Part shown: in pieces, positions 38,768-54,109 of the stretch
How positions within the stretch are numbered: the first letter of the stretch is position 1
Layout of the letters: each line of letters begins with the position of its first letter
DNA from: Eubacteriales Family XIII. Incertae Sedis bacterium
Lineage (GTDB): Bacteria > Bacillota > Clostridia > Peptostreptococcales > Anaerovoracaceae
Assembly: GCA_031272365.1 (NCBI GenBank)
Contig: JAISTX010000039.1
Span: forward strand, 1 to 64,000
DNA length: 64,000 bases
Direction: 5' to 3'
The notes under the pieces: model-generated
Databases searched by the model: none
What the model was told of the DNA's origin: nothing
Seen by the model: only the letters and a program-made list of their open reading frames with translations
Made by a program: the position numbers and the translations under genes

Positions 38768-40579
38768 TCAGATCGTGCCTTCTTCATAATAGGCGCGGCT
38801 CTCTTCGATTTGCTGTTGCACGCGCTCCGCCTCCTCGGCGACCTCGCGCACCGTCGCTTGCGCGATAATGGACTGGATGGTCAGCTCTTCAGGCACGAGC
38901 CCCTGCTTCCGCATTTGCTCCAGGATGCGCATGGCCGCGAGGCTGTTGCCGCCGAGCTCGAAAAAATCGGAGTCCCGGTATATCTCCCGAACGCCCAGCA
39001 CCTCCTGCCAGATTGCGGCGATTTCGCGTTCGGTTTCCGTCCGGCACTCCTCCCCTTTTCGCTCCGCGGCCATTTCGGCGAACAGGCGCGACATAGCTTT
39101 GCGGTCGACCTTGTGGTTCTCGTTCAGGATCAGCTCCGTTCGTTCCAAAAACACGGACGGGGCCATATAGGCCGGCAATTGCGCGCGCAAATGGCCGCGC
39201 AGCTCTTCCTGCGAGACCCGCACATCTTCACGCATGCAATAACAAAGCCCGATCTGCTTCCCGCCTTTCCTGTCGATCAGGACGGCCGCCGCGTCGCGTA
39301 TCGCGGGGTGGCTCTTTGCCTGCTCCTCGATCTCGCCCAGCTCAATCCGGTAACCGTTCAGTTTCACCTGGTCGTCCGCTCGCCCGAGGAATTCCACGTA
39401 CCCGGCTTCGCGGTACACCCCGTTGTCCCCGGTCCGGTACAACCTCCCCAGCGTCCCGCGGCAGACGAAGGCCTCGTCCGTTTTTTCCTTGTTGTTGATA
39501 TACCCCATGCCGACGCCGACCCCGCCGATGTATATCTCGCCTTCTTCGTCCGGGTCCGCCAGGCTTTGGTCCGCCCTCAGCACGTAGATGGACTGGTTTG
39601 GGAGCGGAACCCCGTACGGGATGCTCTTCCACGACGGGTCCACTGCGCCGACCCGGTAGAAAATCGACCAGATGGAGGCCTCGGTCGCGCCGCCGAGGCT
39701 CACGATCTCGGCGTTCGGGAACCGCTTTTGAACCCTTGGTATCAGCTCTTTTGGGATCCAGTCCCCGCTCAGCAGCACGGTTTTCATGGATGGGCACACC
39801 CAATCGTCGGGGCACCCCGCCAGCACCATGTGGAGGATGGACGGGACGGAGTTCCACAGGGTGATCCCCTGGCCCATCAGCTGCCCCCGTATCTGCCGGA
39901 CATCGCGCGCGTCTTTGGACAGCACAAGGCAGGCCCCTTTCGCCAGCATTGCCAGGATGTCGAACACGGACAGGTCGAACCCGAAGGAGGACACGCAGAG
40001 AATCCTGGACCGGCTGCCGACGCCGAACTCGTCGCATACGCTCTGCACCGTGTTGCTTGCGCTTTTGTGCGAGATCATCACGCCCTTCGGGAGCCCGGTG
40101 CTGCCGGATGTGAAAATGATATACGCAAGGGACGCCGGGTCCGGGCATGCGCCATCCTGCAAGTATTCCCTGCACCGGGCGGCCTGGATGCGTTCGGGGC
40201 GCAGCAGCGCCGCGCACGCGCTGGTGGTGAGCAGGTACTCTTTCCTTGCCTGCGGCAGATCCGGGTTGATGGGCACATATACGCACCCCGCCTTGAATAC
40301 GCCTATGATATTTGCAACGGTCCATACCGTCTTCTCCGCCTCTACCGCCACATGGCCGCCCGCCGGGACGCCCTGCTCCCTTATCCGGTTCGCGACTTCG
40401 CCGGAGATCCTGTCAAGCTCCTCGAACGTGAGCGTGTCGCTTGCGTCGCATACCGCCGTCTGCCCCGCGAAGCGCTTCATGGCATCAGCGACCATCTCCG
40501 TCACAGTCATTTCCGGGATGTCCCGGAAATTGTTATTGAAATTTTCCCAAAGCGATTCCGCCCGTCTCTGTTCTATCAT
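38768..40579 (-). CDS. Free-standing NRPS adenylation-PCP didomain
   Basis: A 603-residue A-PCP protein with no condensation domain. The A domain has FTSGSTGLPKGV, FDLSVFD, SGDWIP, GGATEASIWS and NHKVDRK. The hand-read specificity code is DLFNLSLIWK, one residue from the cysteine code. The PCP has ELGGNSLAAM (Ser546). Without its own C/Cy domain it must pair with a Cy in another protein; the orphan C-terminal Cy2 of the 2972-residue protein, followed by a decayed A domain, is the obvious partner. ATG 40579 overlaps the transporter stop (ATGA) and has AGG 4 bases upstream. Confidence 0.88.
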   Translation of the reverse strand: MIEQRRAESLWENFNNNFRDIPEMTVTEMVADAMKRFAGQTAVCDASDTLTFEELDRISGEVANRIREQGVPAGGHVAVEAEKTVWTVANIIGVFKAGCVYVPINPDLPQARKEYLLTTSACAALLRPERIQAARCREYLQDGACPDPASLAYIIFTSGSTGLPKGVMISHKSASNTVQSVCDEFGVGSRSRILCVSSFGFDLSVFDILAMLAKGACLVLSKDARDVRQIRGQLMGQGITLWNSVPSILHMVLAGCPDDWVCPSMKTVLLSGDWIPKELIPRVQKRFPNAEIVSLGGATEASIWSIFYRVGAVDPSWKSIPYGVPLPNQSIYVLRADQSLADPDEEGEIYIGGVGVGMGYINNKEKTDEAFVCRGTLGRLYRTGDNGVYREAGYVEFLGRADDQVKLNGYRIELGEIEEQAKSHPAIRDAAAVLIDRKGGKQIGLCYCMREDVRVSQEELRGHLRAQLPAYMAPSVFLERTELILNENHKVDRKAMSRLFAEMAAERKGEECRTETEREIAAIWQEVLGVREIYRDSDFFELGGNSLAAMRILEQMRKQGLVPEELTIQSIIAQATVREVAEEAERVQQQIEESRAYYEEGTI

Positions 40580-42336
40580 CGTGCCTCCCTCCATTGTTTT
40601 CCCAATTTCCACATGCTGGCCTGGTTTTGGAGCGCGAGCATGTGCGCGTACACGCCGTTCCCCGCGGCAAGCGCATCCGGTGCGCCCTGCTCGGCGACGC
40701 GGCCGTTTTCAAGCACGACGATCTTGTCCGCGCTTGATATCGTCCGCATCCTATGGGCGATGACGATCACCGTCTTGTCCCGGATCAGCGCGGACAGCGC
40801 CGACTGGATGCGCGTCTCGTTCTCCACATCGAGCGACGATGTCGCTTCGTCCAGCAATACGATCGGCGCATCTTTCAGCAGAGCCCGGGCGATCGAGATG
40901 CGCTGCCGCTCGCCGCCCGACAGGCGTTTGCCGTTTTCCCCGATCATCGTTTGATAACCGTTTTCTAGCCGGGCGACGAACTCGTCGCACTGCGCCACTG
41001 CCGCAGCGCGCAGCACCTCTTCATCGGTCGCCTCCTTTCGCCCGATGCGGATGTTCTCGAGAACCGTGTCGTTGAAGAGCACGACGTCCTGGAAGACCAC
41101 CGAGATATACCGCAGCAGCTTCTCCGGTATCACGGCCTGAATATCCACCCCCCCGATCGTGATCGACCCGCTGTCCGGGTCCCAGAAGCGGGCGAGCAGT
41201 TTCCCCACCGTGCTCTTCCCGCTGCCGGAAGGGCCGATGAGGGCAGTGACCTTCCCCTGCTCGGCGGAAAAGCCCACCTTTTCCAGGACGGCCTCGTTCT
41301 CTGCCAGATAGCGGAAGGACACATCTTCGAACTTCACGTCGAAGCGTTCGATGCTCACCTCCTCGTCCCCTTGCTGCTCGGGCTGGTCCATGATGGAGCG
41401 TATGCGCTCCGTCCGCACCGAAGTCCAGAAGATCACGGACAGGTATATGAAGGCCATGCCGATCGGGTCATAGATCCTCGACGCGATGACAAGGAAAACC
41501 AGGTATTTGAAAAAGCTGATCTCCCCAGAAGCGGCGAGGGCGCCGCCGTACAGGATCACGGTCGCAAACCCGAGCCGCAGGATGGACTGCGCCGCCGTGA
41601 CAAACATGCCGGACACCAGCTCGCTTTTCCGCCTGGCCTTTTCCGAGGCTGCCAGATGGCCGCGCAGTTTCCCGAAGACATTCTCGCCGCAATTGAACGC
41701 TTTGATCTCCGGGATGTTCTCGAGCATTTCCTGAATAGCCTCGGCGCAGCAGCGTTCATTTTGCGAAGAAATGGCTGTGCTTTGTTTTTGTTTCGCGGCT
41801 GACGCAACGATCAGGACCGCAGAAACGGGGAGGACCCACAAAAGCGCGCCTGCCATCCGCCAATCGAAAGCGATGACGCCTGCCGCCATGATCAGGGTGG
41901 ATACGGCGGCGCCGAACAGTTGCGGTATGGCATGCGAAAACGCGTGCTCCTGCTCTGTGCAGTCGGCCATGATTGCGGTCGTCAAATCCGTGACGTCCCT
42001 CCGGCTGAAAAATGACAGCGGCAGGACGCGCAGCTTTTCCGCAAGGGATATCCGCTTCATGGCGCTCTCTTTGTATGTTGCGATATAGACACAGCCGTAC
42101 TGCAGATACTGGGTGAGGAAGATGAGCGCCACGCACAAAATGGACAACCCGGCCCAAACCCAGAAACCCTGCCCTTCGCCCCCCGCCGTTTCAAAGCGCG
42201 CGATCGTTTCCTTCAGAAACCATACCAGCAAAAATATCGGAGCCATCAGCGCGATATTGGAGAAGACGCTGGACGCAATGCCCTTTTTCAGGTCTTTTGC
42301 GCCTTCGTCGCTGAGGGCAAAACGTTCCTTTAGCAT
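40576..42336 (-). CDS. ABC half-transporter, exporter fold (YbtQ/IrtB-like)
   Basis: A 586-residue TMD-NBD protein with six membrane segments (about 15-310) and an NBD with Walker [10 protein letters not shown], signature LSGGERQR and Walker B IVLLDEATSSLD. It is adjacent to, and overlaps by 7 bases, a second half-transporter, so the pair is probably a heterodimer. Tandem pairs of this fold in yersiniabactin and mycobactin loci (YbtPQ, IrtAB) import the ferric siderophore despite the exporter fold. Import is therefore plausible here; export is the alternative. Confidence 0.85.
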   Translation of the reverse strand: MLKERFALSDEGAKDLKKGIASSVFSNIALMAPIFLLVWFLKETIARFETAGGEGQGFWVWAGLSILCVALIFLTQYLQYGCVYIATYKESAMKRISLAEKLRVLPLSFFSRRDVTDLTTAIMADCTEQEHAFSHAIPQLFGAAVSTLIMAAGVIAFDWRMAGALLWVLPVSAVLIVASAAKQKQSTAISSQNERCCAEAIQEMLENIPEIKAFNCGENVFGKLRGHLAASEKARRKSELVSGMFVTAAQSILRLGFATVILYGGALAASGEISFFKYLVFLVIASRIYDPIGMAFIYLSVIFWTSVRTERIRSIMDQPEQQGDEEVSIERFDVKFEDVSFRYLAENEAVLEKVGFSAEQGKVTALIGPSGSGKSTVGKLLARFWDPDSGSITIGGVDIQAVIPEKLLRYISVVFQDVVLFNDTVLENIRIGRKEATDEEVLRAAAVAQCDEFVARLENGYQTMIGENGKRLSGGERQRISIARALLKDAPIVLLDEATSSLDVENETRIQSALSALIRDKTVIVIAHRMRTISSADKIVVLENGRVAEQGAPDALAAGNGVYAHMLALQNQASMWKLGKQWREAR

Positions 42337-44138
42337 TTGCCGCCCCTCCCGATTTTCCATTCCGCCGTTTGCAGATAGCTTTCCCACATCCCGGCGTAGA
42401 CTCCGTTCAAGGAAAGGAGCTCTTGGTGCGCGCCCCGCTCGACGACCTCACCCTTCTCCAAAACAAGTATTTCATCCGCGTCGAGGATTGTGGTCAAACG
42501 GTGCGCGATCACCAGCACGGTCTTGTCCTGCGTGAGACGCTGGATGGACCGCTGCATCTTGTGCTCGTTTTCCGGGTCGGAGTACGCCGTCGCCTCGTCC
42601 AGTATGACGATGGGGGCATTTTTCAAAATGCAGCGCGCAAATGAGATCCGCTGCATCTCGCCGCCCGACAGATACACGCCGTCGGGGCCGATCCGCGTTT
42701 CCAGGCCCGACGGCAGCTTGTCCATGATGTCACCGCACTGGGCTTGCTCCAGCGCCTGGTATATCTGCCCGTCCGCCGCCGACGGGTTTGCGACCAGCAG
42801 ATTTTCCCGGAGCGTGCCACGGAACAGGTGCGTGTCCTGAAACACAAAGGACATTTGCGCCATCAATTCGCTCGTCGCCATTTTGCATATCGGCTTCCCC
42901 CCGACCGTGATTTCGCCCGTGTCGGCATCCCAAAATCGTAGCAGAAGGTTCGCAATGGTCGATTTGCCGCTTCCGGATGGCCCCACCAAGGCTACGACTT
43001 GCCTCGGCCGGATCGAAAACGATATGCCGCGGACGCCCAGGCCTTCCGTCCCGGGGTAGCAAAAGCCTACGTTGCGGAACTCCACGCCCAAATCCTTGCC
43101 CGGATGCCTTGCGTTTTCCGCCGCGCCCCTGGGCACCGCTTCCGGTTCCGGCGCGCTTCTTTCGGACAGAATCCCCCCGATCCGGTTCAGGCTGTCCCGG
43201 ACGATCAGGATCGACTCTGACGAAAAAACGATCTTCGACATCATCACCGCGCAGACCGGCGTCAACAGCACAAAGAAGATGAAGTCGGCCAGAAATCCCC
43301 CGTAGTCGGCTTCATGCCTGATGATCAGGAATGACAGCGGTATCAGCACGGCAAACAGCCCGTTCACGCAAACATTGAATGCCGTCAAGGGGATCCGGCA
43401 TGACAAGGCGTAATCCATTACGAATTTTTTGTACTTCATAATGGATTCAAGAAAGCGGTTGAACGAGTAGATCGTTTGCTGGAATATCTTCACCACCGCG
43501 ATGCCCCGTACGTATTCGACAGCCTGCGCGTTCATCGACTCCAATGCACCCTGGTATTCGTCGAGCAGCCGGATCTTGGATGGCCCCATCATGGCAAACA
43601 TGCAGGCCAGCGCGCCGAACATGAGCGCAACGCATGCAAGCCCCAGCCGCCAATCGTTGGCGATGATCAGGACAAGGAAAACGACGGGCGTGGACAGCGC
43701 GCCGCAAAGATCAGGGAGGTTATGCGCAAGGAATGTTTCCGTCTGCGTTGAATTGTCCATGATGATTTTCCTTAGCTTCCCGCTCTGTGCCCTGACAAAA
43801 TACCCTACCGGCAGCGTCAGCAAATGCGCCAGCGCCTTTTCCCGCATATTCCTCGAAACGCGAAATGCTGCCGTGTGGGAGCACAGCAGCGCGAGAAAAT
43901 ACAAGACGATCGCGGCGATGGCATAGGCCATGGCAAAAATGCCGTAGCGGCCTACGGCATCCCCTGCCGGTTCCGGGTAGCGCTCAATCATCAGGCCAAT
44001 GAGTTTTCCGACGCACACGAACGGCATCAGGGACAATACCGCGCTCCCTGCCGATAAGACGCAGGATAGAACAATCATAGGTTTTAGCTCGCCCGCAAAA
44101 GCAAAAAGTTGCCGGGCCGAATTGCTTCGGCTGTCCAT
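42330..44138 (-). CDS. ABC half-transporter, exporter fold (YbtP/IrtA-like)
   Basis: A 602-residue TMD-NBD protein with six membrane segments (about 20-300), Walker [10 protein letters not shown], signature YLSGGEMQR and Walker B IVILDEATAYSD. It is the first gene of the operon, with AAGGAG 6 bases before ATG 44138 and a strong promoter and large palindrome just upstream. IrtA-type proteins carry an additional N-terminal siderophore-interacting reductase domain; none is present here, so reductive iron release would need another protein. Confidence 0.85.
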   Translation of the reverse strand: MDSRSNSARQLFAFAGELKPMIVLSCVLSAGSAVLSLMPFVCVGKLIGLMIERYPEPAGDAVGRYGIFAMAYAIAAIVLYFLALLCSHTAAFRVSRNMREKALAHLLTLPVGYFVRAQSGKLRKIIMDNSTQTETFLAHNLPDLCGALSTPVVFLVLIIANDWRLGLACVALMFGALACMFAMMGPSKIRLLDEYQGALESMNAQAVEYVRGIAVVKIFQQTIYSFNRFLESIMKYKKFVMDYALSCRIPLTAFNVCVNGLFAVLIPLSFLIIRHEADYGGFLADFIFFVLLTPVCAVMMSKIVFSSESILIVRDSLNRIGGILSERSAPEPEAVPRGAAENARHPGKDLGVEFRNVGFCYPGTEGLGVRGISFSIRPRQVVALVGPSGSGKSTIANLLLRFWDADTGEITVGGKPICKMATSELMAQMSFVFQDTHLFRGTLRENLLVANPSAADGQIYQALEQAQCGDIMDKLPSGLETRIGPDGVYLSGGEMQRISFARCILKNAPIVILDEATAYSDPENEHKMQRSIQRLTQDKTVLVIAHRLTTILDADEILVLEKGEVVERGAHQELLSLNGVYAGMWESYLQTAEWKIGRGGKC

Positions 44139-44151
44139 AAATCTCTCCTTC

Positions 44152-44189
44152 GTAACATGGTTGTTAGCATTGACTAACAACCATGTTAC
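44152..44189 (-). promoter_or_regulatory. Perfect 16-bp inverted repeat over -10 and leader of the metallophore operon
   Basis: GTAACATGGTTGTTAG (44152-44167) and its exact reverse complement (44174-44189) flank a 6-base loop. It covers the -10 box, the likely +1 and the leader up to the ribosome site. Its centre (44163-44178) matches the 16-bp palindrome of the other promoters at 13 of 16 positions. It could be an operator, an RNA hairpin over the leader, or both. Confidence 0.8.
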
Positions 44190-44211
44190 CTTCTCCTTTC
44201 TTTCTTGTCAA
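44183..44211 (-). promoter_or_regulatory. Promoter of the metallophore operon
   Basis: On the - strand, a perfect -35 TTGACA (44206-44211) and TAACAT (44183-44188) are 17 bp apart. A 13/16 variant of the shared palindrome (44207-44222) overlaps the -35, and a second variant lies at the start region, so a repressor could block polymerase at both. Confidence 0.75.
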
Positions 44212-44222
44212 CCTATGCTAAC
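44207..44222. promoter_or_regulatory. Variant copy of the 16-bp palindromic box (-35 region)
   Basis: GTCAACCTATGCTAAC matches GTTAGCATATGCTAAC at 13 of 16 positions, with an intact right half. It overlaps the -35 of the metallophore operon promoter. Confidence 0.55.
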
Positions 44223-44236
44223 AAATTTATTTTTTC

Positions 44237-45094
44237 TTACGCCCCCTGCCTCCTGCGGCGGAGATACAGGAAGACGAGTGCCGCCGCTGCGGCGGCCGCC
44301 GCCGCTATGAGCGGGAAGAGCCAGCCCGGGGGCGATGCCGAGCCTTCCGCCCCGGCCTCCGCCGCGCCCGCTGCGGGGCTTCCTACGAGCGGCGTTTTGC
44401 CGTCGCCGATGGCGATGCCCTCCGGCTCCGCCGCTGCTTCCGTGCCTGCCCCGGTTTCCGGCGCAGCGACATCCGCCACATCCAATTCAATAACGGTCTG
44501 CTTCGCCGCGTTGCCACCCGCGAGGTTGACGACGGCTTTCGACGCGGTCGCGGATGCCGACGTGCCGCCGCTGCCGGAAGAGGAAGCGCCGCCGCCGGAG
44601 GATGCCGCCTCGCCGCCGGCGGCCTTGCGCGTGATTTTCACGAGCGTGTCGGGGTTGCTTTTCACCGTGTCGACGCGCAGCGAGTCGCCCTCCCCGGAAA
44701 CGGTGTGCACGCGCACCTCGCTGAACAGGATGCTCTCGGGCGCATCCCCGCTGTATGTAAAAACGAGGTTGCCGAAATGGACAGCGCCGTTTTCGGGCAC
44801 ATAGCGGTTGTCCGTCGAAAAGCAGCCGACGTAGCGTTTGTCCCCGATCGCCGTTTCGGTCTTGTTCTCGAGGTTTTCCGCCGGCTCGAAGCGGACGTAG
44901 GCGAGGCCGGGCGACGCGCTGTATTCAATCTCGGCGCCCGCGATGGCGCCGGCAGCGGGCACGGTGACGGGGATGCTGACCGTGGAGGCGCCCGAAGGCG
45001 CCTCCACGGCATATGCAGGCCCTACCGCAAACGCCCCGGCAAACAGGAGCACCGAAGCCAGGATGCCGAAGAATCTTGTTCGATAGGCTTTCAT
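44237..45094 (-). CDS. Membrane-anchored, cohesin-like surface protein
   Basis: A 285-residue predicted surface protein: signal peptide (FFGILASVLLFAGAFAVGPAYA), then a beta-rich domain (about 35-160) beginning STVSIPVTVPAAGAIAGAEIEYS, which resembles the start of a cohesin. A Ser/Gly/Ala-rich linker (about 165-255) leads to a C-terminal membrane helix ending in RRRR, a membrane anchor. It lies 19 bases downstream of the dockerin protein gene, with GGAGGG before ATG 45094. A membrane cohesin next to a secreted dockerin protein suggests that the two bind each other. The cohesin assignment is by eye and moderate. Confidence 0.55.
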   Translation of the reverse strand: MKAYRTRFFGILASVLLFAGAFAVGPAYAVEAPSGASTVSIPVTVPAAGAIAGAEIEYSASPGLAYVRFEPAENLENKTETAIGDKRYVGCFSTDNRYVPENGAVHFGNLVFTYSGDAPESILFSEVRVHTVSGEGDSLRVDTVKSNPDTLVKITRKAAGGEAASSGGGASSSGSGGTSASATASKAVVNLAGGNAAKQTVIELDVADVAAPETGAGTEAAAEPEGIAIGDGKTPLVGSPAAGAAEAGAEGSASPPGWLFPLIAAAAAAAAALVFLYLRRRRQGA

Positions 45095-45113
45095 AGGATT
45101 CTGCCCTCCTTGC

Positions 45114-47699
45114 TTAACCATACAGGTGGTTGATGATCAGGATGAAGTCCGCAAGGTCGATCACCCCGTCCTCGTTGACGTCGATGCCGCGTTCGGCCAC
45201 CGTGCCCCACGCATCGCCGCCCGCTTCCTCGCTCGCGCGGTAGTACTGCTGCGCGAAGGCCAGGTCCGCGAGGCTTACCTTCCCGTCCCGGTTGAAGTCC
45301 CATGCGTCAAAGCGGATGTCCGTGGCTACGGTCGCCGCGTCCCCTTCCGGCACGAGGACATCCACGTCCTGCTCCGGCGTCGCGCCGGTGGCGGACTTCA
45401 GCGTCACCCGCGCTTCGCCGGCCGTTTGCGCCTTGAAATGGAGCGTCAGCACATCCTGCGCCGCTTCGATGCCCGTGGGCTTGGACGCGCCGAGCACGAT
45501 CTTCTTCGGCGTGCCGTCCGCGTTCTTCAGGACGGTCACGTAGTCGAAGGCCGTCCCGGCCACTTCGGCACCTGTAAATTCCAGATTGCCCGAGTATTCG
45601 ATGTCGGGGATGAGTGTCCGTATGTCGCCCAGATCCGCCGCTTTGACGGTATAGTCGATCGTCGCCCCCGCCGCACTTTCTGCGGGACCCGTGAGGGAGA
45701 GCGCCGGCTTCGCCGTCGCCGCGATCACGTCCAAATAGTACACCTGGTTGTCGAAACCCGCCGACACGAGCGTCAGCACATAGCTGCCCCCGGCCTTGAA
45801 CACGTCCGCGGCGAGGTTGATGGCGTATGTGCCGTCGTCCCCTTTGGCCAGGGCCGCGCCGGCCGCCACCGCCGCGCCGCCGTCTTCGGCGATGGTGCTG
45901 TACCCGCTCCGGCCGGATGTGACGATGCCCGTCGCGAAGGTGTCGTTGCCGAAGTAGATCTTTGTGCCTTTTTCCACCGTCAGCGGGGCGTCCTGCGTAT
46001 AGCCTTCCGCGTAGGCGGAGCCCGGTGCGCCCTGCTCCTTTAGCAGCTTCACGCGCTCCGTGCTCTTCAGCGTGAAAGTGAGCGTCTTGGAGATCACACT
46101 GTCCGTTTCATACGCGATGCTGTAGCTGCCCGGCCAGGACCCGTCCGCGAACAACGCCTTCTTCAGGCTGAGGGCAGCGGTCCCGCCCGCGCCGGCCTTG
46201 AGGGAATAGGCGGAAGCGGCGACTTCCTCGCCGCCTTTGAGCAGCTTCGCGCCCGAGGCGTAAGCGTCCGCGTCTGTCAGCCCTTTCAGGTTGACGGTGG
46301 CGGGCGTCGCGGCAGACGTGCTGGTGACCGGGATCGTCGTGGCTCCGTCGATGGCGGCCGCGCTGTTGATGTACTCCTTCACGTCGAACGAAAACGTCAC
46401 ATCCTCAAAACCCTGCACGTAGACGACGACCGTCCAGGTGTCCGCCGGGTTGAGGCTCTTGAACCGCTCAAAGCGCGAGGGCGATATGGCCACGTCGAAG
46501 TCCTCGTGCATGCGGTGCGTGAAGAGGTTTAGGTGCGGGAGCAGCGGTTCCGTGTGCCCGTCCGAATCTGCGATCAGCCCGCCGTAAATATTATTCGCAA
46601 AATTGTCCCAGTAGTTTGCGCCGGAGAATTCCTCGCCGAGCGCGGCCGCGTCCCCGAAGGAGAAGCCCGTGACGATGTCGCCCCAGTTGCCGCCGTAGGA
46701 GACGCCCTCGGCCGAGCCGCCGTTGCCGAGCCCGGGGAGGCTGCGGCCCGCGGAGGCGTTTACGATTTCCCGCGCGCCGTAGTTCCCGTCCGTCAGCAGC
46801 GGCAGCGCGGCGTAGAGGCCGAGCGATTCCGCCTCCGTCCCGTCCGCCGCGAGGATTTTGCCGGCGGCGGCGATGTTCACTGTGCGGGCGCCTTCCTGCG
46901 TGAGTTTTGCGAGCACGTTCGACGACTGATCCGTCGCCTTGCCGGCCTGCTCGAGCAGCGAGGCGTTTGCGAGCAGGTCGAAGTCCGCCTTCACGCCGGC
47001 TTCCTTGATGCCGGTGATCGCGGAGGTCGGGTCGGTGTTCGACTGGCGCTCGCCGGTGAGCGTGAGGTTGCCGTCCATCGCAAAGTGCACCGTGTCGCCG
47101 TAGGTGGCCGTCGAGACCGCGTCGACTTTTTCTAGCGCGTCCCCCTCCTCGTACGTGGGCGTGTCGACGCCGCCAACGACATTGCCGCTGCGCGTGCCCT
47201 GCGTCACGAAGAGCGCGGGCGCGGCGACCGTGCCGCCCGGCGCAAATGCCGTGTCCGTCGAGAGCACCCCCGTCGGCTGGATGCTATAATAGAATTCGCT
47301 GAACTTCATCGGTACAGCGGCATAGACGGTATCAGGCGCGGCGCGGCCGGGTTCCGCAAAATGGAGCGTTGTTGCAACCGCTGCTCCGTCCGCGGATTTG
47401 ATCTCGAGCGCCGCCTCCGTCTTCCCCGGGATTTCGATCTTCACGAGCGACCCGTCTTTCAGCACGGGCGTCGCTTCGGCCGGCTCCCCGTCCACTGTGT
47501 AGCTGACATCCCCTGTCAACCCATCAGGGTTTACGATGACATAGTTGACGCTGTAGGATGTGCCGGGGATGGTGACGGTGCTTTCGTCGGCGGTCACGCC
47601 GATCCCCTGCGGCGCGACGGACGCATAGGCCGGCGCGAACGGCGCCATGGCCATCAGTGCGGACGCAAATAGCGTCAAAAACCTTTTTGGTAGTCTCAT
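45114..47699 (-). CDS. Large secreted protein with cohesin-like domain and C-terminal dockerin
   Basis: An 861-residue protein with a signal peptide (about 1-30). A long N-terminal region of beta-rich domains contains a His-rich stretch (HLNLFTHRMHEDFD) and may be distantly related to Tp47-type domains. A cohesin-like domain (about 660-790) and a dockerin at the C-terminus follow; the dockerin has two calcium-loop repeats (DFNRDGKVSLADL and DVNEDGVIDLADF). Start ATG 47699 has AGGAG 6 bases upstream. Its promoter's -10 sits inside the perfect 16-bp palindrome, so it probably belongs to the metal-responsive set. A receptor role for metal, haem or metallophore is a hypothesis only. Confidence 0.6.
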   Translation of the reverse strand: MRLPKRFLTLFASALMAMAPFAPAYASVAPQGIGVTADESTVTIPGTSYSVNYVIVNPDGLTGDVSYTVDGEPAEATPVLKDGSLVKIEIPGKTEAALEIKSADGAAVATTLHFAEPGRAAPDTVYAAVPMKFSEFYYSIQPTGVLSTDTAFAPGGTVAAPALFVTQGTRSGNVVGGVDTPTYEEGDALEKVDAVSTATYGDTVHFAMDGNLTLTGERQSNTDPTSAITGIKEAGVKADFDLLANASLLEQAGKATDQSSNVLAKLTQEGARTVNIAAAGKILAADGTEAESLGLYAALPLLTDGNYGAREIVNASAGRSLPGLGNGGSAEGVSYGGNWGDIVTGFSFGDAAALGEEFSGANYWDNFANNIYGGLIADSDGHTEPLLPHLNLFTHRMHEDFDVAISPSRFERFKSLNPADTWTVVVYVQGFEDVTFSFDVKEYINSAAAIDGATTIPVTSTSAATPATVNLKGLTDADAYASGAKLLKGGEEVAASAYSLKAGAGGTAALSLKKALFADGSWPGSYSIAYETDSVISKTLTFTLKSTERVKLLKEQGAPGSAYAEGYTQDAPLTVEKGTKIYFGNDTFATGIVTSGRSGYSTIAEDGGAAVAAGAALAKGDDGTYAINLAADVFKAGGSYVLTLVSAGFDNQVYYLDVIAATAKPALSLTGPAESAAGATIDYTVKAADLGDIRTLIPDIEYSGNLEFTGAEVAGTAFDYVTVLKNADGTPKKIVLGASKPTGIEAAQDVLTLHFKAQTAGEARVTLKSATGATPEQDVDVLVPEGDAATVATDIRFDAWDFNRDGKVSLADLAFAQQYYRASEEAGGDAWGTVAERGIDVNEDGVIDLADFILIINHLYG

Positions 47700-47759: not shown

Positions 47760-47775
47760 GTTAGCATATGCTAAC
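47760..47775. promoter_or_regulatory. 16-bp palindromic operator box, copy 1
   Basis: A perfect GTTAGCATATGCTAAC palindrome. On the - strand it contains the -10 (TATGCT, 47763-47768) of a promoter whose -35 TTGACG (47786-47791) is 17 bp upstream. A protein bound here would directly block transcription of the dockerin protein gene. Confidence 0.8.
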
Positions 47776-47807
47776 ATCACAACAGCGTCAATCCCGCAAT
47801 CGGACAT

Positions 47808-48395
47808 TTATTGAGGCGGCCTTCTGTTTGATTGGATGCGAAGCGCGCGGATCTTCGGGAGCGCGCATTTCACGAGGACGCCCGTGAGCACGCCGCTGGC
47901 GGCACCGAGCAGGGCGGGGACCGGCAGCATCGCGAGCAAGGAGGCGTTGTGGATCACGGCGGCGGCCGCGAGGTACTGCCCCACGACATGGAGGGTTGCG
48001 CCGGCCGCGCTGACAGCAACGGGGGCTTTGACCCATTTCAGCAGCAGCCACATCGCCAGGAAGCTGAGCATCGAGCCGGAGAGGCTGTAGAGGAAGGAGG
48101 ACATGCCGCCGGCGAGCGCGGCCATCAATGCGCATTTCAGGAGGGCAAGGCACAGTGACGTGCAAGGCCGGAAGAGGTAGAGCGAGAGGAGGATGACGGC
48201 GTTCGACAGGCCGAGGTGGACGCCCGGCACGGTGAGGCTCAGGGGGATCTGCCGCTCGATATAGCCGACGACGGCGATGATGGCGAGGAAGACGCCGACC
48301 AACGCGACGTCTCTTGCAAGCGGCTTCCCGGGCGCGGGGCGCGCTGCGCTTTCCGTGTGGCCGGTGCGTTCAGCCCGCAACGGTGTCCGCACCAA
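47808..48395 (-). CDS. Gx-family transporter (Hpre_diP_synt_I domain)
   Basis: A 195-residue membrane protein with about five hydrophobic segments. IERQIPLSLTVPGVHLGLSN and the SLSGSML stretch match the Gx transporter family (pfam name Hpre_diP_synt_I). These are ECF-like membrane proteins often encoded beside ApbE and FMN-binding or NusG_II proteins, and they may supply a flavin or quinone precursor. Start TTG 48395 overlaps the apbE gene and has GGAAGG upstream; GTG 48392 is the alternative. Transport substrate unproven. Confidence 0.75.
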   Translation of the reverse strand: MVRTPLRAERTGHTESAARPAPGKPLARDVALVGVFLAIIAVVGYIERQIPLSLTVPGVHLGLSNAVILLSLYLFRPCTSLCLALLKCALMAALAGGMSSFLYSLSGSMLSFLAMWLLLKWVKAPVAVSAAGATLHVVGQYLAAAAVIHNASLLAMLPVPALLGAASGVLTGVLVKCALPKIRALRIQSNRRPPQ

Positions 48396-49746
48396 GGTCC
48401 GCGCCTTCCTCGATTTTGATGACGAGGCTGTGCGGCAGGCAGACGATCATGTCGCCGGCCGCCGCATGCGCGCCCATTTGGACGCAGGTCTGGTTTGCGC
48501 AGTTCGCCTCCGCGACGCGGACGCTGCCGCCCTCGACCAAAATCCTGTTTTCCATCCCGTCCCGCTCGAAGACGTACTCCCGGTCCTGCCCGAGGCGCAG
48601 CGTTTTCACGGGCTCGTTTTCGTAGTACACGACCGCGACGCCCTCTTCCTGCGGAAGCGTGAAGCGGTCGTCCGCGGGGGAGACGACGCCGATCAGCCCA
48701 GCCGTGACGTGGATCGTACCGTCCGCCGTGATGAACACGCCCTCGGCCTCCGGGATGGAGTCGAGCAAGGCCATGCCCCGGTCCAACCCGAGGACGAAGC
48801 AGGCCGTCGACAGGCCGTCCGCCAGCGTGGAGGACGGCGCCACGATGGACACCGACAGCAGATTGCCCTCCACCGGGTAGCCGGTGGCCGGGTCGAGGAT
48901 GTGGTGGTAGATCACACCGCCCTCTTCGAAAAATTTCTGGTACCCGCCCGAAGTCACGACGGCGGCGTCCATGGCCGGCACCGTGCACGCGACCGACCCG
49001 TCGCCCGGGTAAGGCGACGCGATGCCGATCGTATACGCCTCCCCGCCGGGCTTCGCGCCGAGGGCGTATACGTTGCCCCCGAAGTCGAGCAGCGCCGAGG
49101 ACACGCCCTGCCCCCGCAGCGCTTCCGCCGCGCGGTCGCAGGCGTAGCCCTTCGCGATCGCGCCGAGATCCAGCCGCGTCCCCGGGAACGCGAGGCGGAC
49201 CGTCCCGTCCGCACGCAGCTCCACGTTCCCCGCGCCTGCGCCGGGGCGCGCCGCAGCGATCTCTTCCGCGGACGGCAGGCGCGCAAACGCGCCGTCCTCT
49301 TTCCAAAGCTCCGTGAGCCCCCCGATGGCGGGGTCGAACGCGCCGCCGGAGAGCTCCGCAATCCGCAGCGCCTCTTCGAGGATTGCATACGTGCCCTCCG
49401 AAACAGGCACGGCCGCCCCGAAGCCGCTTTCGTTGACGCGGGAAATCTCGCTGTCCGGGCGGTTCACCGACATCGCCTCATCCACTTCCGTGGCCGCGGC
49501 AAACGCTGCTTCGAATGCCGCGCTTCCGGGCTCGGCGCCGCGCCCGTATACCGTGACCGTCACCACGGTGCCGAGCAGGCCGGTCCGCGATTCGGAAACG
49601 GGCGCGGCAGGCGCGGCGGCGGCCTCGGGCTCTTTCACGGCGGCTCGCGAAGCCCCGCTCGGCGCCGCGCAGGCGGCGAGCAGCAGCAGGGCTGTTATTG
49701 CCATGGGCAATAGGGAGGCGGGCGTCGCGGCATTTCGTTTCAACAT
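48370..49746 (-). CDS. apbE: ApbE FAD:protein FMN transferase fused to NusG_II domain
   Basis: A 458-residue lipoprotein. The signal ends in ALLLLAACAAP (Cys lipidation). The ApbE domain (about 50-345) has SVNRPDSEISRVNE, FDPAIGGLTELW, RLDLGAIAKGYACDRA and HHILDPATGYPV; the family covalently attaches FMN to Thr of extracytoplasmic FMN-binding proteins. A C-terminal NusG_II-like domain (about 360-450) has NCANQTCVQMG and CLPHSLVIKI; this domain is often separate from ApbE. The start overlaps the AraC gene by 7 bases. No obvious flavinylation target gene is in the window. Confidence 0.85.
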   Translation of the reverse strand: MLKRNAATPASLLPMAITALLLLAACAAPSGASRAAVKEPEAAAAPAAPVSESRTGLLGTVVTVTVYGRGAEPGSAAFEAAFAAATEVDEAMSVNRPDSEISRVNESGFGAAVPVSEGTYAILEEALRIAELSGGAFDPAIGGLTELWKEDGAFARLPSAEEIAAARPGAGAGNVELRADGTVRLAFPGTRLDLGAIAKGYACDRAAEALRGQGVSSALLDFGGNVYALGAKPGGEAYTIGIASPYPGDGSVACTVPAMDAAVVTSGGYQKFFEEGGVIYHHILDPATGYPVEGNLLSVSIVAPSSTLADGLSTACFVLGLDRGMALLDSIPEAEGVFITADGTIHVTAGLIGVVSPADDRFTLPQEEGVAVVYYENEPVKTLRLGQDREYVFERDGMENRILVEGGSVRVAEANCANQTCVQMGAHAAAGDMIVCLPHSLVIKIEEGADLGADTVAG

Positions 49747-50123
49747 CGCGCCCTTTCCCAAGCGGGGGCTTCCGCGGCCGTCTTGCGGTATTCGCTCGGG
49801 CGGACGCCCGTGACTTTACGGAAGGCGGCGGAAAAGGCGCTGGGCTTCTGGTAGCCGACCATCGCGGCGATGGCGTGCAGCGGGATCTCCGTCTCGCGGA
49901 TCAGGCGCTTGGCCTTCTCGACGCGCGACTGCGAGACGTAGGCGTGGATCGTGCTGCCGCAGACGAGGCGGAAGCAAAATTTCAATTTCGTCGGGCTCAT
50001 GTGGGCGAAGCGCGCCAGCCGCGCGATCGTGACCGGCTCCGCGCAGTTCGACTCGATGTGCGCGCGCAGCGCCTCGATCTGCGCCCTGTCCTCCTGCTTG
50101 ATTTCGTAGCTCTCCCCGTACAA
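49740..50123 (-). CDS. Small AraC-family regulator (HTH only)
   Basis: A 127-residue protein made almost entirely of the AraC/XylS DNA-binding domain: two helix-turn-helix units (ARLARFAHMSPTKLKFCFR and HAIAAMVGYQKPSAFSAAFRKVTG) ending with the RPSEYR signature. No ligand-binding domain. I favour a TTG start at 50123, with GGGAGGG 7 bases upstream; an ATG at 50171 lies inside the palindromic operator and has no ribosome site. Yersiniabactin loci use an AraC protein (YbtA) with ferric siderophore as signal, so this is a candidate activator of the metallophore operon. Confidence 0.8.
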   Translation of the reverse strand: MYGESYEIKQEDRAQIEALRAHIESNCAEPVTIARLARFAHMSPTKLKFCFRLVCGSTIHAYVSQSRVEKAKRLIRETEIPLHAIAAMVGYQKPSAFSAAFRKVTGVRPSEYRKTAAEAPAWERARC

Positions 50124-50163
50124 CCCTCGGCCCTCCCGCTTCTCTGCGAATTGACACTTATTT

Positions 50164-50179
50164 GTTAGCATATGCTAAC
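50164..50179. promoter_or_regulatory. 16-bp palindromic operator box, copy 2
   Basis: A perfect GTTAGCATATGCTAAC palindrome, 11 bp downstream of a TATAAT -10 (- strand, 50191-50196), so it covers the transcription start of the AraC-ApbE-Gx operon. Confidence 0.8.
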
Positions 50180-51577: not shown

Positions 51578-51658
51578 TCCGATGTAGGACTTGTTGCAAG
51601 GACACCCCCGTTTTCCGGCATTCATAAGGCGATTTCGTGCAACAACCCCCACATCGGA
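51578..51658. repeat. ~80-bp imperfect palindromic element, copy A
   Basis: TCCGATGT (51578-51585) pairs with ACATCGGA (51651-51658) and TTGTTGCA (51591-51598) with TGCAACAA (51638-51645). It shares the outer GTAGGACTTGTTGC and an inner CGTTTT ... AGGCGATT core with copy B at 53274-53354, in the same orientation. One copy lies on each side of the AbiEi/DUF559-type gene. Confidence 0.75.
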
Positions 51659-51701
51659 CACATCTATTGACATTTTCATAGAATTTCGAGAGAATAGTCG
51701 A

Positions 51702-53063
51702 ATGAGGAAGCTGCTGTTTTCATCGAGGAAAAACGACACGGCGCCGCGGAAAGCGCTGCGGGGCGACGCGTACACACGGCTGTTCCGGGGGGCGGCAGTC
51801 GAACGGGCCTGGTGGAAATCCTTGCGGCCGAGCGGCCAGCACGTGGTGCGCGCGGCGGCGCTGGGCGGGCTCCGGCCGGGATGGGTGCTGACAAAGCTGA
51901 GCGCCGCAGCTGTGCTCGGGGCGCAGATCAAAACCTGCCCCTCCGAGATCACGTGCGCGGCGGCACCGGGGAAGGGCCGGGCTTTCACGGAACTGCCCGG
52001 GGTGCGGGCGGGCTTGCTGCCGCCGCACGCCAAGGTCGTCCGGCAGGCCGTCGCGGTCGAGGCGGGCGCGGAAGTGGCCGTCCTGTGCACATCGCCCGCC
52101 TGCACCATGTTCGACGTGGCCGCATCGTGCCCCCTCGACGAGTCCCTCGTCGTCATCAACTCGCTGCTTGCGAAAGCCTCCGCGGACGCGGCGCGGTCGG
52201 AGGCGCTCAAGAAAGAGGCCGATATGCTGAAGGGCCTGCATCCCATCGTGGACGCAAGCAAGCTGGCCCGCCAGGAGTCGTTTGACTATCTTCGCATGTC
52301 CGCTGCGGAGGTCGAAGCGGAAGCCGGGCGGCTCATGCGGGAGAACGGGCGCGCGCTGCGGGCAGGCGGGCGGCAGTTTTGCCGGCAGGGAGCCCGCCGG
52401 GACGAGCTCGCTGCAGGGACCGCCGCCGCGCTGCTGGGCGCAAAGTCGTTCCGGGCATTCCGCTCCCAGGTCGATCGCTACCGGCAGCACGGTTTGAACA
52501 CCAAGACCGCCGCCGGCCTGTACGAGGAATGCCTCGCGCTTGTATGGAAAAACCGCCGGAGATTCGGCGTGCGGCGCGCGCTGCTCGCTTTGCTGTTCGC
52601 GACGGACCAGTGCGAGTCCGCCGCCGAGAGCCTCTCCTGCGCACGGTTTTTCGAACTGGGCTTCTCACAGCCCACGCTGCAAGTCGAGTTCCTCGCGGCG
52701 GACTCCGGAAGGGCGGTCTACCGCGTCGACGGCGCGTGGGATCTGCGGGAGACGCCGCGCGGGAAAGCCCGGGGCCCGTTCCCTGACGCCGTCGTTTTGG
52801 GCGCGCCCGCGCCCCCGGCCTCCAAACAAGCGCTGCTCTTCGAATTTGACGGCGCGGCCAAATACCGAGACCCGGAAATGCTGCGGGGTCGCGACCGGGG
52901 GGATGTCCTGGCCGCCCAAATCCGGCGCGAAGCGGACCTCCGCGAAAAGGGCTACGAAATCGTCCGCGTCATTTGGGGCGACCTCAACCCGCCGGCCGGC
53001 CTCGCGCGGAAACTCAGCCGCTTCGACATCCCGCGGCTCCGGCTTCGGAAGCGGAAGCGCTGA
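51702..53063 (+). CDS. AbiEi/DUF559-type protein with PD-(D/E)XK nuclease-like C-terminus
   Basis: A 453-residue protein. The C-terminal ~150 residues contain FEFDGAAKYRDPEMLRG, READLREKGYEIVRVIWGDL and conserved spacing typical of the DUF559/Vsr-like endonuclease tail found on AbiEi-like proteins. The upstream region has an AbiEi-antitoxin-like middle (LGGLRPGWVLTKLSAA ... LPPHAKVVRQAVAV). A possible role is nuclease-linked defence or a toxin-antitoxin partner, but no toxin gene adjoins it. ATG 51702 has only a weak ribosome site; an earlier in-frame start (51591) lies inside palindromic copy A. The gene stands alone between two copies of the same repeat, suggesting an acquired unit. Confidence 0.55.
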   Translation: MRKLLFSSRKNDTAPRKALRGDAYTRLFRGAAVERAWWKSLRPSGQHVVRAAALGGLRPGWVLTKLSAAAVLGAQIKTCPSEITCAAAPGKGRAFTELPGVRAGLLPPHAKVVRQAVAVEAGAEVAVLCTSPACTMFDVAASCPLDESLVVINSLLAKASADAARSEALKKEADMLKGLHPIVDASKLARQESFDYLRMSAAEVEAEAGRLMRENGRALRAGGRQFCRQGARRDELAAGTAAALLGAKSFRAFRSQVDRYRQHGLNTKTAAGLYEECLALVWKNRRRFGVRRALLALLFATDQCESAAESLSCARFFELGFSQPTLQVEFLAADSGRAVYRVDGAWDLRETPRGKARGPFPDAVVLGAPAPPASKQALLFEFDGAAKYRDPEMLRGRDRGDVLAAQIRREADLREKGYEIVRVIWGDLNPPAGLARKLSRFDIPRLRLRKRKR

Positions 53064-53383: not shown

Positions 53384-53803
53384 TCATCCTGCGAGCCCGG
53401 CCCCGAACGCCTTGCAGCGGCCAGCCTCCTCGCCGGCCGGCGCCTCGTTGACGATGAGCCCGTCGCCGAGGACGTCCGCGCCGGCGTCCCGCGCGCGCTG
53501 CACCCAGTTGCGCATCCACTCTCCGTCGCCCCAGCCGTACGAGCCGAACAGCGCGAGCTTGCGGCCGGCCAGCTTGCCCTCGACGGAGGAAAACCACGGG
53601 TCGAACTCCGTTTCCTCGAGTTCCTCCGCGCCCATCGACGGGCAGCCGAGCGCGAGCACGTCACAGTCCAGATCCGCGTCCGTCGCCCCCGATACCGTTT
53701 TTGCGGCAACCTCCGCGCCGCCGCTTTCCGCGCCCTCCCGGATCAGCCCGGCCATCGCCTCCGTGTTGCCCGTGCCGCTCCAATAAATGATGTTGATCTT
53801 CAT
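53384..53803 (-). CDS. Flavodoxin
   Basis: A 139-residue cytosolic FMN electron carrier. The N-terminal phosphate-binding loop YWSGTGNTEAMA, the ALGCPSMGAEELEE loop and LFGSYGWGDGEWM loop contact the FMN. Length is typical of short-chain clostridial flavodoxins. It would replace ferredoxin when iron is scarce, which fits the perfect palindromic box upstream of this two-gene operon. It lies 21 bases downstream of a small unknown gene. Confidence 0.92.
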   Translation of the reverse strand: MKINIIYWSGTGNTEAMAGLIREGAESGGAEVAAKTVSGATDADLDCDVLALGCPSMGAEELEETEFDPWFSSVEGKLAGRKLALFGSYGWGDGEWMRNWVQRARDAGADVLGDGLIVNEAPAGEEAGRCKAFGAGLAG

Positions 53804-53824
53804 GACCCTACGACTCCTTTCTGT

Positions 53825-54061
53825 TCAAAAAACCTTTACGATCTCATTGGCCGCGTCCGCGCGCGCCTGGTCGATCCTGCCGCAGAGCGCGCGCGCCGAT
53901 TCCGTATCGTGGTATACCTTCCAAAGCGCGTTCAACGCGTAGCCCTGCCCCCCGTTTTCGATGAACGCCGCCTCGTGCGCCGCCGCGTACAAAAACTGCA
54001 TCCGGAGCCGCTCGCAATCAGGCGCCCCCCGCACGTATTCCTGGAACTCAAACTTGCCCAT
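53825..54061 (-). CDS. Small protein of unknown function, flavodoxin operon
   Basis: A 78-residue, probably helical cytosolic protein without a family I recognise. It has one Cys pair positioned far apart and no signal peptide. The start at ATG 54061 is supported by GGGAGG 7 bases upstream. It is the first gene after the palindromic box and precedes flavodoxin, so it is probably co-induced with it. Confidence 0.6.
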   Translation of the reverse strand: MGKFEFQEYVRGAPDCERLRMQFLYAAAHEAAFIENGGQGYALNALWKVYHDTESARALCGRIDQARADAANEIVKVF

Positions 54062-54093
54062 CTCAAAGCCTCCCTTATCACGCAAGACACGGT

Positions 54094-54109
54094 GTTAGCA
54101 TATGCTAAC
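54094..54109. promoter_or_regulatory. 16-bp palindromic operator box, copy 3
   Basis: A perfect GTTAGCATATGCTAAC palindrome 18 bp downstream of a TATAAT -10 (- strand, 54128-54133), in the leader of the small gene-flavodoxin operon. Confidence 0.8.

Follow-up and report, generated by a model that had tools for sequence, protein, structure and literature searches.

A putative iron-regulated cohesin-dockerin pair in a metallophore-type gene cluster of an Anaerovoracaceae bacterium

Results

Two adjacent genes in the 64,000-nucleotide stretch of an Anaerovoracaceae genome analyzed here (hereafter the window) encode a secreted protein ending in a dockerin and a small membrane protein with a cohesin-like domain. 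We read the pair as an iron-starvation-induced surface display cassette, the core of which takes part in flavin-linked iron acquisition, and give this reading as a whole a probability of about 0.55. The dockerin, the layout of the anchor, the recurrence of the cassette, the operator with its regulon and the linkage to ApbE/EetB in two genomes are features of the sequence itself. Cohesin-dockerin pairs are familiar chiefly from complexes that degrade polysaccharides and from a few toxin complexes. In the following, a minus sign after window coordinates denotes the reverse strand.

The open reading frame of the secreted protein is open from position 47807 (897 residues). AGGAG lies 6-7 nt upstream of 47699, a better start than that of the 897-residue frame. 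The gene most likely starts at 47699 (45114-47699, −), giving a predicted protein of 861 residues with a signal peptide (MMRLPKRFLTLFASALMAMAPFAPAYAS; 47619-47699, −) that was read by eye. As the initial annotation stated, this secreted protein ends in a two-repeat dockerin (45123-45314, −), which is of type I. The Pfam match to PF00404 had an E-value of 1.3e-7, above the gathering score, and both calcium-loop motifs, DFNRDGKVSLAD and DVNEDGVIDLAD, were intact by reading. Upstream of the dockerin are a cohesin-like domain (45375-45719, −; residues 697-811 of the 897-residue frame) and a core module of unassigned fold (45717-47612, −), the latter common to homologues in two other genomes at 44-47% identity. 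The next gene encodes the membrane anchor protein of 294 residues (44237-45121, −), and its start overlaps the 3' end of the dockerin gene by 8 bp. It consists of a signal peptide, a cohesin-like domain (44729-44995, −; residues 43-131), a Ser/Gly/Ala-rich linker and a strongly hydrophobic C-terminal membrane helix (44246-44329, −), modelled as helix 268-292 and followed by RRRR. AlphaFold models of the two proteins, with mean pLDDT values of 40 and 37, were too poor for use. PDB sequence searches gave no meaningful match.

The promoter-like site of the pair (TTGACG-17-TATGCT; 47763-47791, −) carries the perfect palindrome GTTAGCATATGCTAAC over its -10 element (47760-47775). The 2.9-Mb genome contains exactly three copies of this palindrome, against an expectation of about 1e-4 from base composition, and all of them are in the window. 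The other two copies precede an AraC-family regulator gene (49740-50171, −; operator at 50164-50179, just after a TATAAT) and the genes of a DUF3793 protein and a flavodoxin (53384-54085, −; operator at 54094-54109). The promoter of the ABC/NRPS operon (44183-44211) has a degenerate copy on each side, one of them at its -35 element (44207-44222).

The looser pattern GTTAGC-N4-GCTAAC was found at 63 sites in 40 genomes, versus 4 sites for the reversed control. Among 18 loci returned for the family, the box in 17 adjoins feoA/feoB (7), DUF2325 (4), fused ABC transporters (3), DUF3793, FTR1 or ZnuA. One box (L088) separates feoA from a divergent Fe_dep_repress (DtxR-type) regulator gene, and another (L086) falls within the annotated start of FTR1. 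Boxes at three loci with no adjacent iron gene (L082, L095 and L070) may be due to chance. We take DUF2325 and DUF3793, on general grounds and from their association with the box, to be iron-regulon members. Two side observations were made at these loci. Similar proteins of unassigned function are encoded at 51591-53063 of the window and at 1431-2714 of L070, with a GTTAGC-N4-GCTAAC box within a few kb of both. In a relative (L084, 1642-2085), a small cytochrome b561-like protein (PF01292) is encoded downstream of the iron box, with a DUF2325 gene opposite, and could possibly be an iron-regulated electron-transfer partner.

EqbA regulates the equibactin cluster and is DtxR-like; the operator proposed for it includes GTTAGATGTATCTAAC in a 36-bp palindrome (PMC3672683). 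The half-sites of the GTTAGC-N4-GCTAAC box and their spacing are identical to those of this proposed operator. A 38-bp inverted repeat with 16-bp perfect arms, which resembles the EqbA palindrome and includes a second degenerate operator (44163-44178), was also found just before the start of the ABC transporter gene (44152-44189); it could alternatively be a hairpin in the leader. On the basis of the neighbors of the box in relatives and its likeness to the EqbA operator, we judge the palindrome to be an iron-type box. The metal box that had been proposed for this promoter is thus borne out by the three exact copies and by the boxes before feo and DtxR-type genes in relatives, and expression of the dockerin-anchor pair is very probably controlled by iron.

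Downstream of the pair are two ABC transporter genes (42330-44180, − and 40576-42387, −), both with fused membrane and ATPase parts in a YbtP/IrtA-like layout, and metallophore-type biosynthesis genes (19840-40612, −). The latter encode a phosphopantetheinyl transferase, a PKS/NRPS, A-PCP proteins, a reductase and an NRPS with a DxxxxDxxS cyclization motif; the PKS part and this motif were read directly from the sequence. With an NRPS/PKS system including a cyclization domain, A-PCP proteins and a fused ABC pair, the cluster is of the Yersiniabactin/equibactin type. Over the biosynthesis and transporter genes (19840-44180), G+C content and third-position G+C are lower, at 0.7-0.8 instead of about 0.9, suggesting horizontal acquisition of the cluster.

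A scan of the genome contigs and about 750 whole genomes found the core in only two further genomes. The first (L028, a metagenome-assembled genome labelled Actinomycetes) has a core 44-47% identical, with Big_2 domains and neither dockerin nor cohesin; three boxes lie between its gene and divergent ApbE, NusG_II and PF07456 genes. The second (L031) is from another class of the phylum of the window. Its core homologue carries S-layer repeats, and neither a box nor ApbE was found nearby, a fact that we count against the main reading. The core is thus presented in three ways, and the iron box and flavin genes are tied to two of the three.

In the window, two flavin-related genes lie between the AraC gene and the dockerin-anchor pair. 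One encodes an ApbE FMN transferase fused to NusG domain II (EetA-like; 48370-49761, −) and the other a PF07456 protein (47808-48395, −). We take PF07456 to be the EetB family. EetB-like proteins belong to the FAD exporter S-subunit family; Listeria EetB is required for the export of FAD for flavinylation, and eetB colocalizes with apbE in 2,169 genomes (PMC9973259). ApbE modifies [S/T]GA[S/T]-like sites (PMC8238504). The core contains a single DxxSTAT site (DAVSTAT; 47103-47123, −), which resembles the ApbE flavinylation site and is a candidate only. The pattern DxVS[TS]AT is present in all three homologues, with apbE adjacent in two of them; since the STAT site had been noticed before counting, its rarity is not an independent test. 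FMN_bind gave no match in the dockerin protein or in either ApbE-bearing genome (that of the window and L028). The conserved STAT-type site and the lack of an FMN_bind match in both of these genomes make the core a candidate ApbE substrate. Two points stand against the main reading here: the site reads STAT where SGAT would be canonical, and FMN-binding homology was not detectable in the core. Flavin-linked redox chemistry by the core is a tentative proposal. The boldest version of it, that the core represents a new ApbE-substrate family with a non-canonical S[TS]AT site, namely an iron-regulated, flavinylated surface protein that cohesin-dockerin binding fastens next to a metallophore importer and that, in an anaerobic organism, reduces ferric metallophore on the outer side of the membrane, would seem unlikely.

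We favor flavin-linked handling or reduction of ferric metallophore by the core, and its main rival is plain capture of metallophore or haem. As a receptor without redox chemistry, the docked core would capture ferric metallophore or haem and hand it to the adjacent ABC transporters, replacing a lipoprotein substrate-binding protein, and ApbE and EetB would serve other proteins. This explanation fits the place of the pair, which immediately precedes the two ABC transporter genes, and no gene for a substrate-binding protein was seen in the cluster. It also fits a conserved His/Met-rich block in the core homologues (NLFTHRMHEDFD) and weak matches to the haemoglobin-interacting domain in all three of them (20.9 bits for L031, about 15-16 bits for L028 and 15.5 bits for the dockerin protein, in a Shr-like segment at 45741-45833, −). 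These matches, however, are below the curated cut-off of 22.3 bits, and no NEAT domain was matched in the Pfam scans. On account of the sub-threshold matches, a haem receptor of the Shr type was rejected. Moreover, the receptor explanation gives no reason why two genomes of different phyla should both have apbE and eetB next to the core and under the same box. A receptor without redox chemistry is a possible explanation that we consider rather unlikely.

The pair was further analyzed in the context of the whole genome, in which 15 dockerins and 11 Pfam cohesin matches (nine over the cut-off) were found. Five of the six genes for membrane-anchored cohesins directly follow a dockerin gene. In each of these cassettes, on contigs C4, C22, C58 and C76 and in the window, a gene ending in a dockerin is followed by one for a small secreted single-cohesin protein with a C-terminal helix; the sixth membrane-anchored cohesin gene follows the anchor gene on C22. 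On the basis of this recurrence, the window pair is regarded as one of several two-gene display cassettes in the genome. Six loci in relatives (L037, L042, L047, L053, L059 and L061) also have a cohesin gene immediately after a dockerin gene, with a C-terminal helix in three of them (L037, L053 and L059). Anchoring at L058 appears, as read from the tail, to be via an S-layer repeat.

Among the five pairs in the genome, the similarities of the dockerins mirror those of the adjacent cohesins (r = 0.97, exact p = 1/120; r = 0.88, p = 1/24 without the window pair); among both the dockerins and the cohesins, those of the window diverge most. The mirrored similarities fit paired specificity, and would also fit duplication of whole cassettes, which counts against the main reading. 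We consider it likely that the dockerin of the 861-residue protein binds the cohesin of the neighboring anchor.

Nine of the 15 dockerin proteins were scanned for glycoside hydrolase families and none was found. As the genome is about 89% complete, this and the other absences from it are provisional. Membership of the window pair in a cellulosome was rejected for want of such families in the nine. No glycosidase was found among the scanned genes of the window either, in agreement with the earlier remark that none is nearby. The dockerin proteins scanned are adhesin-like (BspA LRR, Ig-like, Glug) or of unassigned function. It would therefore be conceivable that the 861-residue protein is a general adhesin or surface-layer protein merely located in an iron-regulated region, attached by a cassette that serves adhesin-like proteins elsewhere too; the S-layer repeats of the L031 homologue, which has no iron context, agree with this. 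The dockerin gene's own promoter, however, has one of the three perfect iron-type boxes in the genome, and the L028 homologue also has boxes. We regard this explanation as improbable.

Neither cohesin-like domain was detected by Pfam, and when the single sequences were aligned with nine cohesins by hhalign, the E-values were only 0.01-0.05. Because of this weak result, a larger profile was built from cohesin domains gathered from the same bacterial family, in which cohesins were found in 36 of 197 genomes. The profile, iterated to 46 domains, contained no anchor sequence from the window. In the dockerin protein it matched residues 697-811 with 27 bits (E = 9e-8), and in the anchor residues 43-131 with 16 bits (E = 2e-4). 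The top of 400 shuffled decoys reached 9.9 bits, and the top other open reading frame of the window 3.7 bits. The score of the dockerin protein is less independent, since G008, one of the training domains, shares 35% identity with its cohesin-dockerin tail. The NPG motif is absent from the domain of the anchor. The profile scores support the two cohesin-like domains as originally described; for the anchor, the support for a cohesin domain is moderate. The signal peptide and C-terminal helix of the anchor likewise agree with the original description. That both domains are unrelated Ig-like folds, so that the two proteins do not dock and the anchor has a different role, agrees with the misses by Pfam, the weak hhalign result and the lack of NPG, but is highly improbable given that both domains outscored all decoys, that a relative has a tail of Pfam-level cohesin plus dockerin that shares 35% identity with that of the dockerin protein, and that the gene layout is that of four clear cohesin-anchor cassettes in the genome. 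The tail with this identity is found on a calcineurin-like phosphoesterase (L027, 1477-3540).

Discussion

For an iron-regulated protein at the cell surface, encoded next to a metallophore-type transporter pair and a flavin module, iron uptake is the most likely role, and the function of the dockerin protein is probably iron acquisition. The initial annotation had suggested a surface assembly for the capture of metal, haem or metallophore. The link to metal acquisition stands, on the basis of the layout found in five places and the iron-type operator; metal, haem and metallophore would each be a candidate cargo, and the haemoglobin-interacting matches are below threshold. Since an ApbE-NusG_II fusion and an EetB-like FAD exporter, which that annotation passed over, are adjacent, the context points to a redox role besides, or instead of, capture.

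In the mechanism that we propose, a DtxR-type repressor would occupy the GTTAGC-N4-GCTAAC operator over the -10 element when iron is plentiful. When iron is short, the pair would be expressed along with the genes for metallophore synthesis and transport. The dockerin protein would be secreted and held at the surface by binding of its dockerin to the cohesin of the membrane anchor from the adjacent gene. The core would then serve iron acquisition in a role coupled to the neighboring ApbE/EetB flavin module. As a flavin-linked protein outside the cytosol and next to the ABC transporters, it would accept or reduce ferric metallophore or a different ferric or haem source.

Each part of this arrangement is known, namely non-cellulosomal cohesin-dockerin pairs, an EqbA-like box and ApbE/EetB; their combination did not turn up in the literature searched. 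In the publications searched that name cohesin, dockerin and siderophore together, no link among the three is apparent from titles and abstracts. If the reading is true, an iron-controlled pair in a metallophore-type cluster would make cohesin-dockerin binding a general tool of surface display. The equibactin authors left open whether surface proteins have a part in such metallophore uptake in Gram-positive bacteria (PMC3672683), and the pair would be a concrete candidate.

The equibactin (eqb) locus of Streptococcus equi resembles the window cluster: it has a Yersiniabactin-like NRPS and a YbtP/Q-like ABC pair, and for it a DtxR-like operator, GTTAG-N6-CTAAC, has been proposed within a long palindrome. 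Neither a cohesin-dockerin pair nor an ApbE/EetB module is reported in the part of the source available (PMC3672683). The window cluster differs also in being headed by an AraC regulator. As in the Listeria EET/flavinylation locus (EetA, EetB, FmnB, PplA; PMC9973259), ApbE, NusG_II and EetB-family genes lie beside that of a secreted protein; unlike there, this protein has no recognizable FMN_bind, and other EET genes were not seen at the window. Shr of Streptococcus pyogenes (PMC10912661) is likewise a surface iron-acquisition protein, and the window has weak segments like its haemoglobin-interacting domain. The dockerin protein, however, lacks NEAT, is below the cut-off for that domain and is anchored differently.

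Multi-toxin complexes of Clostridium perfringens, as cited in PMC12997984, are also non-cellulosomal and use cohesin-dockerin binding on secreted proteins outside cellulose degradation. The window partner differs from them in being iron-regulated, in having no detected enzyme domain, in its own membrane anchor and in its place inside a metallophore-type cluster. Like organisms with cellulosomes, amylosomes or mucinolysomes, the genome of the window has dockerin proteins and cohesin surface anchors, together with one protein of three cohesins and a dockerin (L018). Its cassettes, in contrast, are one-to-one gene pairs and not enzyme arrays, and no glycoside hydrolase family was found on the scanned dockerin proteins. 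The three-cohesin protein is scaffoldin-like (contig C22, 9894-14698); after it come two membrane-anchored cohesin proteins and one dockerin protein of 1545 residues, an arrangement that is cellulosome-like, but with no glycosidase found. On contig C29 (L021, 5202-17937), four large secreted dockerin proteins, with no adjacent cohesin, are encoded in a row.
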